Source: Halorarum halophilum (GTDB lineage Archaea; Halobacteriota; Halobacteria; Halobacteriales; Haloferacaceae). Taken from it: a DNA stretch of 64,000 bases. The notes under the pieces are model-generated. The model had not been told where the DNA came from. It did no database searches and was given only the letters and a program-made list of their open reading frames with translations. Positions within the stretch are counted from its first letter, which is position 1. Every line of letters starts with the position of its first letter. Of this stretch, positions 41,854 through 59,806 are shown piece by piece. The stretch covers positions 2,108,001-2,172,000 of the forward strand of contig NZ_CP058529.1 in the NCBI RefSeq assembly GCF_013401515.1. The letters are read 5' to 3'. The position numbers and the translations under genes are program-made.

Positions 41854-42090
41854 GGGTAGGAATGAAAGGGGCCGCGGCTCTGCGGGAAGCACGACGTTCA
41901 CGAGAGCAGAGCTCTCGTGAGCTCGCGGGACGGGTCCCGCGAACGAGGCAAGCACCGTGGTTCGAGGGAGCATAGCTCCCTCGTCATCACGAAACGGCTT
42001 CACCGTCTCGAACGACAGGAACGAGGCCAGAGGCCGAGTGACGAGGAGCGCAGCGAGGCGCGCGACCGCAGAGCCGCGGGGGCTTTCGAG
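41854..42090 (+). repeat. Structured element, copy A (covarying stem)
   Basis: The copy opens GGGTAGGAATGAAAGGGG and ends GGGCTTTCGAG. CCGCGGCTCTGC at 41872-41883 pairs perfectly with GCAGAGCCGCGG at 42068-42079, and GAAAG (41864-41868) faces CTTTC (42083-42087) outside it. Inside are tight hairpins: 10 bp at 41898-41920, 8 bp at 41924-41941 and 9 bp at 41963-41983. An AAGCACCG block and a GACGAGGAGCGCAGC block are shared with the other copies. No credible protein is encoded. It could be a structured RNA or a non-autonomous mobile repeat. Confidence 0.65.
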
Positions 42091-52277: not shown

Positions 52278-52753
52278 ATGAATCGTCCCCTTCGTCCAGT
52301 TTTCATCGGTCTACTGTTGGTCACAACAGGATGTCTTGCTGGCCCGGGTGGAATCACATCAGGGACTGCCTCGGACTCAACACTGTCACGAACAGCGACG
52401 GTAACTGCCGAACCGATCTCGTTTCCGGACGGGCCGAAGGAGCGTCCTGACCATCCGGAGCCGCTCAACGACGCATCCGTTCGGGAGTACGTCTCTCTGA
52501 TGGAATATCGATACGTGTACAATTCCTGTGGCGCGGACAACATACGGACGTAGAACTGTCCTGTGAGGTTGAACAGGTGGAGAGTCGAGATGGAGGGTAT
52601 AAAGCCGTCGTTGCGTGCGGTGGCTACGCTGATATCGAACTGCCGGAGAACAGTACGGCAACTCCCGGACCGCACTACGACTATTTCACTCAAGTGTACC
52701 GTTACATCGTAACCGAAGAAACGGTCCGTCGAACGTTCGTCGAAGAACGGTAG
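52278..52753 (+). pseudogene. Frameshifted small lipoprotein gene
   Basis: The gene starts ATG at 52278 with a lipoprotein signal (FIGLLLVTTGC, Cys 19) and stops early at 52551-52553. In the -1 frame the coding sequence resumes with DVELSCEVEQVESRDGGYK and runs to TAG at 52753, so a one-base loss or a sequencing error between ~52520 and 52550 is likely. The restored protein would be ~155 aa. The segment before the break resembles part of the lipoprotein at 55245. A/T content is clearly higher than in the flanks. Function unknown. Confidence 0.65.
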
Positions 52754-52871
52754 GTATTCACCCTGCACCGATCGATAGGGTCGGTCCGAAATCACGGGGG
52801 ACATCGATTCATACCCCTATGTTGATATATCCTGGTGGAGAGGACACCTGATGACATCGTGAGATTTCACA

Positions 52872-53037
52872 GGGGCTTTCGACCGTCTCGAAAGCCCCCG
52901 GGGCGCTCGACTCCGGGGCCTCGCTGTCGTTCGAGAGAGCTTCGCTCTCTCGTGATGCTGTCGGATTCTGTCGAATCCGACCGCTAACGGGAAATCTTCG
53001 ATTTCCCGCAATGACGAAAGACGCTTCGCGCCTTTCG
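52872..53037. repeat. Tandem hairpin array related to the structured element
   Basis: Five hairpins follow one another. GGGGCTTTCGA/TCGAAAGCCCC is an 11-bp stem at 52872-52898. CGAGAGAG-CTTCG-CTCTCTCG lies at 52932-52952, and a 9-bp stem GTCGGATTC/GAATCCGAC at 52960-52981. CGGGAAAT-CTTCG-ATTTCCCG is at 52988-53008, and a CGAAAG.../CTTTCG stem with one mismatch at 53015-53037. The first hairpin and the next bases reproduce the CTCGAAAGCCCC end box of the other elements. No ORF is supported here. It fills most of the 52754-53201 gap. Confidence 0.6.
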
Positions 53038-53201
53038 AACCCCGCTCCTCGCTCCCTCCTTCAGTCGTCCCTCGCGTGAACGCGGCGGACACGAAGGTCC
53101 GCCGACACGCGCCGTGTCGGTGATCTCCCACTTCTGTCTCCCGTTCCCCGCCGTGATTCCCGGAGGGCAACCTTCTTGCCGGCGCGCCCGCGCCGTCGGG
53201 T

Positions 53202-53975
53202 ATGCACAGGCCGGCCATCGACGACGCGATCATCGAGGCCGTCGCCGCGAACACCGGCTTCGAGGCGACCGACGTGAAGGTCGGACTGCGGACCCTCCAC
53301 GACGCCGTCCGCGACCGGGTCGCCGAGGAGTTCTCCGCGGCGCGCGACGCCGAGGGGCCCGACCACCTCCTGCTGGAGGGTCCCGACGCGGCGTGGTTCG
53401 CGCTCGACTACCGGGAACTCGAGGCGACGCTGGCGGACGCCGGCTACGAGATGGACGAGGACCTGCTGGCGGCCGCCGCGGCGACGAACCTCCGGGCGTT
53501 CCAGGCTGGCGAGGGCCGAACCGTCTCCTTCTCGCGCTCGCTCGCAAAGGAGTACGAGGCACCGTTCCTCTACCCCGTCCGCGTGAACAAGTCCGAGTCG
53601 TGGCGGGCGGCGGAGCGACACGCGCTCGACTGCGTGACGGACCTGCTGGACGCGGGATTCTCGCCTGCCGACGCGCTCGACGCCTGGGCCGTCGAGTGGC
53701 TGGGTGTCCCCGTCGCCGAGTGGGCCGAACGGCGCGGCGTCGACGAATCGACCGTCCGCGGCGCCGTCGAGCGGTCACGCGATCATCGCGAGACGCCGGG
53801 GGGCCGGGTCGACCCCGGGAACGACGTGACCGCGCCGTCGACCGACGCGACGCCCGCGGATTCCGCGTACGACCCGGAGACGGACCGGCTGTTCATCCCG
53901 ACCGACGAGCACGTTCCGCCGGAGGAGGCGGAGAACCTGCTCGCTGGTGACGCCGACGACCCGGGATCGGAGTAG
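53202..53975 (+). CDS. Soluble haloarchaeal protein, unknown function
   Basis: A 257-aa acidic, mostly helical protein without signal or membrane segment. Visible features are an N-terminal HRPAIDDAIIEAVAANTGFE, a central RAFQAGEGRTVSFSRSLAKEYEAPFLYPVRVNKSE segment, and a C-terminal HTH-like stretch (VAEWAERRGVDESTVRGAVER) with an acidic tail ending DPGSE. The HTH-like region hints at DNA binding, but I cannot name a family. It stands alone between a hairpin array and a DUF5518 gene. Confidence 0.6.
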   Translation: MHRPAIDDAIIEAVAANTGFEATDVKVGLRTLHDAVRDRVAEEFSAARDAEGPDHLLLEGPDAAWFALDYRELEATLADAGYEMDEDLLAAAAATNLRAFQAGEGRTVSFSRSLAKEYEAPFLYPVRVNKSESWRAAERHALDCVTDLLDAGFSPADALDAWAVEWLGVPVAEWAERRGVDESTVRGAVERSRDHRETPGGRVDPGNDVTAPSTDATPADSAYDPETDRLFIPTDEHVPPEEAENLLAGDADDPGSE

Positions 53976-55085: not shown

Positions 55086-55202
55086 ACGCTCTCGTCGTCC
55101 GTGACTCGCTGTGCTCTTCGGCTCGCTCGCTATCAGCAGATTGTAGCATGGTTTTCCCTGTTCAGAGTAAACCGAAATACTCGCGGCAAGTTCGGGGAAA
55201 AC

Positions 55203-55210
55203 ATTTATCG
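55203..55210 (+). promoter_or_regulatory. TATA box of the lipoprotein gene
   Basis: ATTTATCG in an A/T-rich context ~35-40 bases upstream of the ATG at 55245. Spacing allows a short leader. Confidence 0.4.
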
Positions 55211-55244
55211 ACAGAGTGTAAATGTGCGAAAAGTGAAAGATGGA

Positions 55245-55868
55245 ATGCGTCGCCGCAATCTACTTATCCTCACAGGAGCCGGGTTTTCAGGTATTCTCGC
55301 CGGTTGTCTCAGTACTGAACGACTTGCTGGGAACGACGATACCGAAACAGTGTCAGAGCAAACAGACACTTCTGCGGAAGCCACTTCGTTTGAGGATCGG
55401 GAGGGACCACCAGAATACGACTGCGATACTGCCGAGCGACCAGAGCCTGACGCACTCGATACAAGTGATGAAGATGCAGTGGAACCCGTTTCCTATCCCG
55501 CACCCCTCGATTCGACTGCGAACCAGGATACGGTGGTTACGTACATCAAGGAATACGAGCAAGCATACCGACGAAATGAATCGGTTTCGAGGTGGGAAGC
55601 ACAGCTTGACCAATTTTCTATGGGATTTAGCGATACCAGGGTCTACGATTCACCTGTCAACGCGGCACTGGTCCGGGTTCAATACCAATACGGGGAAACG
55701 ATTGAACAGTCGGGTGAAGTCGTTTATGCTGATTCCCCAATCATATTCGTGACGTACTACGTCGACCAGTCTGTTGTCATCCGCGCAGAGAGTGGTCGAA
55801 CACCTGAGGACCCAGACACGCTTTACCCTGACCCGTGGCTGGAGGGCAATCCCGTCCAATGTTTTTGA
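55245..55868 (+). CDS. Low-GC lipoprotein, unknown function
   Basis: A 207-aa exported lipoprotein with signal MRRRNLLILTGAGFSGILAGC (Cys 21). A Thr/Glu/Ser-rich linker leads to a ~120-residue domain with YPAPLDSTANQDTVVTYIKEYEQAYRRNES and VYADSPIIFVTYYVDQS. It is a likely relative of the frameshifted gene at 52278. Base composition is unlike the neighbours (26 G/C in the 60 bases 55201-55260), a sign of recent transfer. Function unknown. The ATG at 55245 starts the signal directly. Confidence 0.7.
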   Translation: MRRRNLLILTGAGFSGILAGCLSTERLAGNDDTETVSEQTDTSAEATSFEDREGPPEYDCDTAERPEPDALDTSDEDAVEPVSYPAPLDSTANQDTVVTYIKEYEQAYRRNESVSRWEAQLDQFSMGFSDTRVYDSPVNAALVRVQYQYGETIEQSGEVVYADSPIIFVTYYVDQSVVIRAESGRTPEDPDTLYPDPWLEGNPVQCF

Positions 55869-59177: not shown

Positions 59178-59306
59178 CTCGAAAGCCCCCGCGGCTGTCG
59201 ACTCGAGGGACCGCGCCTGTGCTCCTCGTCGCTCGCGTTGCTCGCTCCTGCGGTGCTTACCGGGTCCGCCGTCGTCGACAGCCGCGGCCCCTTTCAGTCC
59301 CACCCG
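59178..59306 (-). repeat. Structured element, copy C1 (covarying stem)
   Basis: The compact copy, read on the minus strand: GGGTGGGACTGAAAGGGG, then stem CCGCGGCTGTCGAC, a loop with GTAAGCACCGCA and a GGACC/GGTCC inner pair, the stem partner GTCGACAGCCGCGG, and the GGGCTTTCGAG end box. On plus coordinates the arms are 59189-59202 and 59274-59287, a perfect 14-bp match. Upstream on the same strand is TTGGGGAGGG. No coding. Confidence 0.65.
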
Positions 59307-59522
59307 ACCGCATCTCACCCTCCCCAACCGGCGAGGCCCTTCCTGGCCGTCGGGACCTCGCCCCTCGCACGAGCAGCCGCGCAGAGCGCGGCCGCCGCGC
59401 GCCACGTGGACCGAGCGGGCTGGTGCGGTCGGCGTGTGCCGGCGGGCCTCCGTTCACGCGAGTGAACGCAGTGAGCGAGGGTGAACTCATGGGACCGAAG
59501 GTCCCAGGTAGTGCCCGCCGGA

Positions 59523-59570
59523 CGCGCGCGAGGGATGAGTGAGCGAAGCGAGCGAATCGGCTGGGGAGGC
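59523..59570 (+). repeat. Head module of the structured element, region C copy
   Basis: CGCGCGCGAGGGATGAG (59523-59539) and GCGAATCGGCTGGGGAGGC (59552-59570) recur exactly on the minus strand at 41564-41634. A short GCTGC/GCAGC hairpin follows, leading directly into copy C2. Confidence 0.6.
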
Positions 59571-59594
59571 CTGTGGCTGCTGTGCGGTGGCAGC

Positions 59595-59806
59595 GTGGGT
59601 GGGAATGAAAGGGGCCGGCTGGCTACGCGAACCCCGGGCCCGGTGAGCCGAGCCTGCGAGGCGAGCCTCGGGAGTCGCAGCCCGCACAGCGAGGCGAAGC
59701 CGAGCGAGCAGGACCGTCTCCCGTAGTAAGCACCGCAACGCGACCGCAGGGAGCGTGAGGAGCGCAGCGTGGTCCGCGGGAGCGTAGCCAGCCGGGGGCT
59801 TTCGAG
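59595..59806 (+). repeat. Structured element, copy C2 (covarying stem)
   Basis: Opens GTGGGTGGGAATGAAAGGGG. CCGGCTGGCTACGC (59615-59628) pairs perfectly with GCGTAGCCAGCCGG (59782-59795); the copy ends GGGCTTTCGAG at 59806. The interior carries GTAAGCACCGCA, a GGACC/GGTCC pair and GAGGAGCGCAGCG. The stem sequence differs from copies A and C1 but is fully complementary. It lies between serS and the thiolase gene and encodes nothing credible. Confidence 0.65.

Follow-up and report, generated by a model that had tools for sequence, protein, structure and literature searches.

A hairpin array of Halorarum halophilum belongs to a dispersed intergenic repeat family of haloarchaea

What kind of sequence puts five hairpins one after another into 166 nt of intergenic DNA? 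This question is raised by positions 52872–53037 of the stretch of the Halorarum halophilum genome analysed here (64,000 nt in full, hereafter the window, to which coordinates refer). A sequence-only reading had described five perfect or near-perfect hairpins at this place, two of them with the same CTTCG loop, and had proposed a processed RNA, a protein-binding array or an insertion target. By sequence inspection, we have confirmed the five hairpins at these coordinates. Folded as RNA, the 166 nt reach −90.4 kcal/mol, compared with a mean of −59.1 (sd 4.0) for 200 dinucleotide shuffles (z −7.8); as a DNA single strand they reach −56.0 kcal/mol (z −8.7), and in both cases none of the 200 shuffles folds as well. 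In addition, the window holds 26 perfect hairpins (stem of at least 8, loop of 3–6) against 13.9 ± 3.6 in 30 Markov-1 controls, and four perfect hairpins fall within 200 nt at the array, where the maximum over the 30 controls is two. The hairpins thus stand as described, with folding and density far beyond chance.

The repeat family, its intact element and the parts of the array

A search of the H. halophilum genome with the surrounding 401 bases returned 36 matches, including one that shares 91% identity with the array over 164 nt. Since the same composite recurs in this genome and also in two congeners (76–85% identity), the array does not stand alone, and it is a member of an intergenic family of dispersed repeats. 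The copies share the plan of a half-element, that is, the left end box CGAAAGCCCCC, then a side arm, then the right box GGCCCCTTTCAGTCCCACCC. At up to 3 mismatches, the right box has 71 sites in this genome, with 0 for a reversed control pattern; at up to 2 mismatches, it has 62, 105 and 93 sites in three members of the genus (105 in the congener G001). An exact box scan of species genomes found at least 120 stretches, and all among the matches listed are from haloarchaea.

Across the class, a covariance model of the intact arm matches 121 of the 145 sampled genomes and 48 of the 58 genera, with very uneven numbers per genome, from 0 to at least 25 (the highest value given by this count). According to a simple codon model made for this analysis, which is not an annotation, the box lies within a predicted gene in 0 of 62 cases in H. 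halophilum, 0 of 71 in G001 and 1 of 156 named cases. The repeat is also found on haloarchaeal plasmids, where the best match lies over no annotated feature in any row with a gene table (22 of 24 rows, two records being without annotation). A phage collection of 50,697 records gave no match to the repeat, so a viral origin is rejected. A known RNA family is rejected as well, given that Rfam has 0 matches at gathering score across the whole window, intact copies included. A search of the openly licensed literature, box sub-strings included, did not find a description of the family, which is not proof of absence. Overall, the lasting result is the family itself, which is class-wide, kept in structure and without an Rfam match.

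Half-elements frequently occur as tail-to-tail doublets, and we have located 49 such inverted-pair units. The gap between their boxes is 18–27 nt in many genera and at least 139 nt in the genus of H. halophilum. Within a unit, box pairs with box and end box with end box, while each arm forms a fold of its own; for four units from named genomes, the predicted structure is a cloverleaf, at −183 to −203 kcal/mol for 264–293 nt. The 49 pair units have the inverted ends GAAAGCCCC / GGGGCTTTC, and single half-elements have one end only. The end pairing extends outward in several units, with GAACAGCC before the end box and GGCTGTTC after it. Arm-less forms also exist, in which the end box is joined directly to the right box. 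One intact unit lies in the window at 59180–59804 (half-elements 59180–59305 on the plus strand and 59597–59804 on the minus strand), and G001 is occupied at the same place (L302). Another half-element of the window, carrying hairpin modules in its arm, lies at 41854–42088 on the minus strand.

Two side observations concern these boxes. The widest gaps, 722 and 838 bp, separate the inverted box pairs of L308 (469–1226) and L072 (343–1216), which enclose reading frames that are candidates for cargo or for chance neighbours. These two gaps were read with an autonomous copy in mind, and such a form may exist. The reverse complement of the right box (for example at 59286–59305) is GTGGGACTGAAAG, which we take to resemble the 3' end of haloarchaeal CRISPR repeats.

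An end box had been noticed earlier on the first hairpin of the array; the box is present, but it is part of a larger element that extends beyond 52872–53037. Hairpin 1 (52872–52898, 11 bp, loop CCGTC) consists of an inverted end-box copy facing the end box (GGGGCTTTCGA / TCGAAAGCCCC), and among the listed copies of this genome only this one has an inverted box just outside. The left end box itself (type A, 52889–52899) is common to the left ends of 60 copies in this genome and 155 other copies, and lies on the plus strand, as do the arm strand, frames, linkers, short stretch and tail that follow. Next comes the 5' strand of the arm (52900–52925, covering the base stem and the first part of the inner stem), whose 3' partner is missing here on comparison with intact copies.

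Hairpins 2–5 are a four-hairpin module, a variant also seen in L014, L148, L260, L264, L301 and L304. It begins with the left frame of module C, GTCGTT (52926–52931). Hairpin 2 (52932–52952, 9 bp, loop TTC) has the stem CGAGAGAGC, and after the linker TGATGCT (52953–52959) hairpin 3 (52960–52981, 9 bp, loop TGTC) has the GTCGGATTC stem, which occupies the same place in L260, L264, L301 and L304. The linker CGCTAA (52982–52987), elsewhere CGCTGA or TGCTGA, leads to hairpin 4 (52988–53008, 9 bp, loop TTC, stem CGGGAAATC), and the linker CAATGA (53009–53014) leads to hairpin 5 (53015–53037, 10 bp with one mismatch, loop TTC, CGAAAGACGC/GCGCCTTTCG). The right frame (53038–53043) is AACCCC here and AACCAC in others. 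It is followed by CGCTCCTCGCTC (53043–53054), a short stretch found in both the arm and the downstream tail of intact copies, and by a type D tail (53068–53113), which in intact copies stands beyond the right box and matches L207 at 82.6% over 46 nt (E 2.9e-8).

In the family at large, the modules sit within arms and beside boxes, and follow the plan GTCGTT, hairpin, TGATGA, hairpin, AACCAC. A script picked out 45 candidate modules. The left frame is present in 39, and among these the two-hairpin form with the TGATGA linker accounts for 29, each of which carries a right frame, AACCA or GACCA. The 58 stems of the two-hairpin modules comprise 22 sequences in 24 combinations, the commonest being CGAGAGAGC (19), CGAAAGGCGC (7) and CGAGACGGC (5). 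Loops of 3 nt are the rule and vary freely, with up to seven different loops on one and the same stem and with both complementary forms present (GAA 16 and TTC 8, TCC 6 and GGA 4, TCT 3 and AGA 2), as would be expected if loops flip on hairpin extrusion. Since the loops vary in this way, the shared CTTCG loop is no signature: the idea that its repetition marks a function has not been borne out, and a functional CTTCG loop is rejected.

Some further observations were made on linkers and hairpins. The linkers of module C (for example at 52953–52958, and in L301) contain GTGATGA and CTGA, which presumably resemble, in sequence, boxes C and D of archaeal guide RNAs. A type B hairpin element, with CCTCTTTT near or directly after a stop codon, occurs at L005, L006, L007, L042–L045, L048 and L050; its order is a hairpin, AAAACCCG, two hairpins resembling hairpins 3 and 4 of the array, CCAAAA and another hairpin. 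It may mark transcription ends and have cassettes in common with the cloverleaf family.

Orthologous sites and the history of the window copy

The array is flanked by a lipoprotein-like reading frame that appears frameshifted by eye, and by a reading frame at 53202–53975 without a Pfam match. The former frame (52286–52756) adjoins the array and has an early stop or frameshift; a similar-looking frame stands 2.5 kb on, at 55200–55868, and the two form a paralogue pair as judged by eye only. In the relative G002, both flanking genes are kept with a shorter gap between them, which holds element-like remnants by eye, and in G001 they lie apart. Comparison with relatives, which had been named as a check on the array, has therefore a divided outcome: the composite is found at 76–85% in two congeners, but the hairpin module of the window is absent from the orthologous gap of G002.

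The window copy can be described as a left end and a four-hairpin module fused to a downstream tail, and it is partly deleted. Because the module runs into a tail that elsewhere stands beyond the right box, the right arm strand and the right box have been lost from this copy. They were probably lost by recombination at a short shared stretch, and CGCTCCTCGCTC at 53043–53054 is the probable deletion joint.

When places in H. halophilum and G001 were matched by their coding flanks, at least 13, taken from the best-scoring matches, were found to be shared among 58 loci of the former and 60 of the latter (the G001 set being 60 fetched regions with 71 boxes, of the 105 genome-wide at up to 2 mismatches). 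We have viewed nine of these shared places. Only one of the two species has the whole arm at L185/L272 and at L214/L257, and only one has the module at L040/L299 and at L207/L301. In the H. halophilum genome, nothing recognisable as a counterpart of the G001 unit L298 is seen in the 168-bp gap, and for L265 no flank pair was recovered in that genome. Inspected by eye, the 49 pair units show no target duplication; no clean empty site was found, and the non-coding flanks of H. halophilum and G001 are too diverged to reveal sharp insertion joints. Overall, many element positions are old and shared, which also fits a useful resident element, and modules within arms vary in presence at orthologous sites in a way compatible with insertion or deletion.

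Stem turnover and strand asymmetry

Both boxes are present in 215 copies, and in 193 of these the arm measures at least 60 nt. In their 11-bp base stem, 1865 of 2123 cells are Watson-Crick pairs. After removal of the 14 arms in which fewer than 7 of the 11 positions pair, 1805 of 1969 cells are paired in the 179 arms left, compared with 903.5 ± 23 when partners are re-dealt among copies; these statistics take the best of 12 offsets per arm, which slightly favours pairing, and keep arms with hairpin modules. At the same time, 145 of the 179 arms have distinct base stems.

We have further aligned 60 of 91 non-redundant arms, which form one length class (of the other arms, 21 were not included and 10 were set aside, two of the latter as odd). 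Changes on both sides are seen in 14 of 21 pairs, and the loop letters of the arm are conserved. The covariation score is 0.395, compared with 0.107 ± 0.010 in shuffles (0 of 500) and at most 0.076 with partners slid, where kinship inflates the counts and the structure, being derived from the same alignment, is favoured over its slid versions. Kinship would nevertheless hardly produce a fivefold drop on sliding. Since the stems alter their letters but stay paired, what evolution preserves seems to be a folded single strand and not a fixed sequence. In the inner arm stem (alignment A1, columns 53–57 with 99–103), a central mismatch is kept, mostly A.A on the favoured strand, and the pairs flanking it covary (CG/GC/UA).

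The imperfect pairs of the base stem are not evenly distributed. When the strand opposite to the box as written (minus) is read, the filtered arms have 75 G.U and 13 A.C pairs (49 and 13 distinct contexts), and 92 and 28 are counted without the filter. By class, the G.U to A.C counts are 69:13 in single copies, 15:5 in short-gap pairs and 18:4 in long-gap pairs, although the short-gap class taken by itself does not reach significance (12 to 5 distinct contexts, p 0.14). The G.U excess has the same sign for boxes on either genomic strand. Since the sign is the same in all classes, the preference goes with the individual element end rather than with a single strand of the unit as a whole.

This excess of G.U over A.C, which falls on one strand when each element end is taken as the reference, points to a strand that folds by itself. 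It could be accounted for by a factor recognising each end in folded, single-stranded form or by two outward RNAs, but not by one long transcript. Strand-biased mutation could mimic such a wobble asymmetry.

Candidate explanations and known systems

With somewhat better than even confidence, we regard the array as one decayed copy of a palindromic mobile repeat, non-autonomous and spread across the haloarchaeal class. Of the three readings proposed at the outset, the insertion target comes nearest, because the array is a nested composite, namely the left end of a dispersed repeat carrying a module found in like elements; module presence also differs between species. A putative RNA is still admissible, since covariation and one-strand wobble support a single-strand structure. 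The earlier interpretation was therefore right in spirit, the array being structured and apparently insertion-related, and wrong on the loop. As for mechanism, each end would be recognised as a folded single strand, on the strand with its 3' end directed outward from the element, by a putative recombinase or similar factor reading shape more than sequence. Such recognition would keep the stems paired while their letters drift, and would permit gain, swap and loop flip of hairpin modules. No mobilising protein was found for the repeat, with Y1_Tnp as the family tested, and the window copy is probably immobile now because its right half is missing.

As the main alternative, the family might be a structured non-coding RNA, with the half-element transcribed on the minus strand as 5'-GGGUGGGACUGAAAGGGGCC-arm-GGGGGCUUUC-3', which would fold and act as a putative processed RNA or mRNA end element, the window array again being a decayed copy. 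We consider this rather unlikely. Covarying stems, the minus-strand preference for G.U over A.C and the conserved arm loop all suit it, and so does the orientation of single copies in tandem gene pairs, whose favoured strand runs with the genes in 60 cases and against them in 36 over three sets (43 single copies at locus edges were not classed). On the other hand, this bias is weak outside H. halophilum (18:4 there, 15:12 in G001 and 27:20 in named genomes), and Rfam gives no match. Tail-to-tail pairs with 18–27 nt between boxes would leave no room for two outward promoters, and because the asymmetry points outward in both arms, one transcript through a unit would have one arm in the unfavoured sense. 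Less probable still is a double-strand DNA site, in which the cloverleaf would be extruded as a cruciform and bound by a nucleoid, junction-binding or resolving protein for chromosome organisation, with the hairpin modules as tolerated extras. The cloverleaf fold of the four full units folded, the old and shared positions, and the two complementary loop forms, which extruded hairpins would be expected to show, argue for it, and proteins binding four-way junctions and cruciforms are described in the accessible parts of published work. Cruciform use, however, is strand-neutral whereas the wobble is one-sided, and genomes differ greatly in copy number (0 to at least 25).

That the family consists of ordinary REP/REPIN or IS200/IS605-derived (PATE) repeats moved by a Y1 transposase is very unlikely, although the palindromic, intergenic and paired inverted layout agrees with it and Y1_Tnp (PF01797) is present in 99 of the 145 sampled genomes. 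Y1_Tnp has 0 matches in the H. halophilum genome, where a Y1/RAYT-driven repeat is therefore rejected, while 5 of the 14 control genomes, Haloferax volcanii among them, do have matches. It is absent as well from G001, so that two genomes with 71 and 105 boxes are without it, and from five further genomes with at least 25 arm matches each, such as G063. Conversely, G007, G003 and G010 have 8, 5 and 5 Y1 matches and no arm match. Across the class, neither the arm family nor Y1_Tnp needs the other. The element also carries terminal inverted repeats, whereas PATEs, as defined in the accessible text of the 2011 Haloquadratum paper (PMC3119063), have near-terminal palindromes but no such repeats. 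Finally, chance hairpins or a cluster of transcription terminators in GC-rich intergenic DNA can hardly be credited, and have nothing in their favour except the intergenic place of the array. Chance is ruled out by the shuffles (0 of 200 fold as well), the Markov-1 controls and the 71 box sites genome-wide. The family is class-wide, and a T-run of intrinsic terminators follows none of the five hairpins, the bases after them being CGGGG, TGATG, CGCTAA, CAATGA and AACCC.

Beyond the reading of the array as a decayed mobile repeat, we tentatively put forward a broader proposal, which is possible and still doubtful: a class-wide element inherited by shape, with a cloverleaf, few conserved boxes, stems rewritten nearly per copy, pairing maintained on one strand, and cassettes that are inserted, swapped and loop-flipped. 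If true, the family would represent a novel type of single-strand-hairpin recombination system, or of ribonucleoprotein element. In any case, a family in 48 of 58 sampled haloarchaeal genera is a concrete target in the search for either a novel recombinase acting on single-strand DNA or a novel RNA of archaea.

Several known systems resemble the family in part. REPs and REPINs, which go with RAYT transposases (Y1 enzymes) and have a GTAG or CGTC tag next to a palindrome of 20–40 nt, are intergenic palindromes and form inverted pairs, as here, whereas the cloverleaf elements are several times longer and have a side arm per half and stems not fixed in sequence, and the H. halophilum genome has no RAYT. 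Integron attC sites have variable stems that are recognised as a folded single strand with one strand preferred; the variable stems and the strand preference are shared, and the architecture differs. Parvovirus inverted terminal repeats form a T- or cross-shaped palindrome with side arms, whereas here dispersed copies lie in cell genomes, outside any viral context. PATEs and other IS200/IS605 derivatives, as far as the accessible text describes them, are similar in their single-strand hairpin ends and many decayed haloarchaeal copies; the cloverleaf family differs in its terminal inverted repeats, and the H. halophilum genome is without a Y1 transposase.

The nearest published kind, within what the accessible part of the 2011 paper covers, is the small mobile repeats (SMR) of Haloquadratum. 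There, SMR-A of Haloquadratum walsbyi is described as about 110 bp long, with inverted ends, many copies and no coding capacity, and as inserted within palindromes of other elements (PMC3119063). Like SMR-A, the 49 pair units have inverted terminal repeats and are too short for a transposase. On the other hand, SMRs of one type are commonly more than 95% identical (PMC3119063), whereas the arms here differ nearly per copy (145 distinct in 179), with pairing alone kept, and SMR-A belongs to one species whereas this family is class-wide. Since the within-type identity fails, the family cannot be filed as an SMR on that description. The mobilisation of SMRs is termed 'enigmatic' by the authors (PMC3119063), and the many copies described here, with arm-less and module-free forms among them, allow a direct test of this question.
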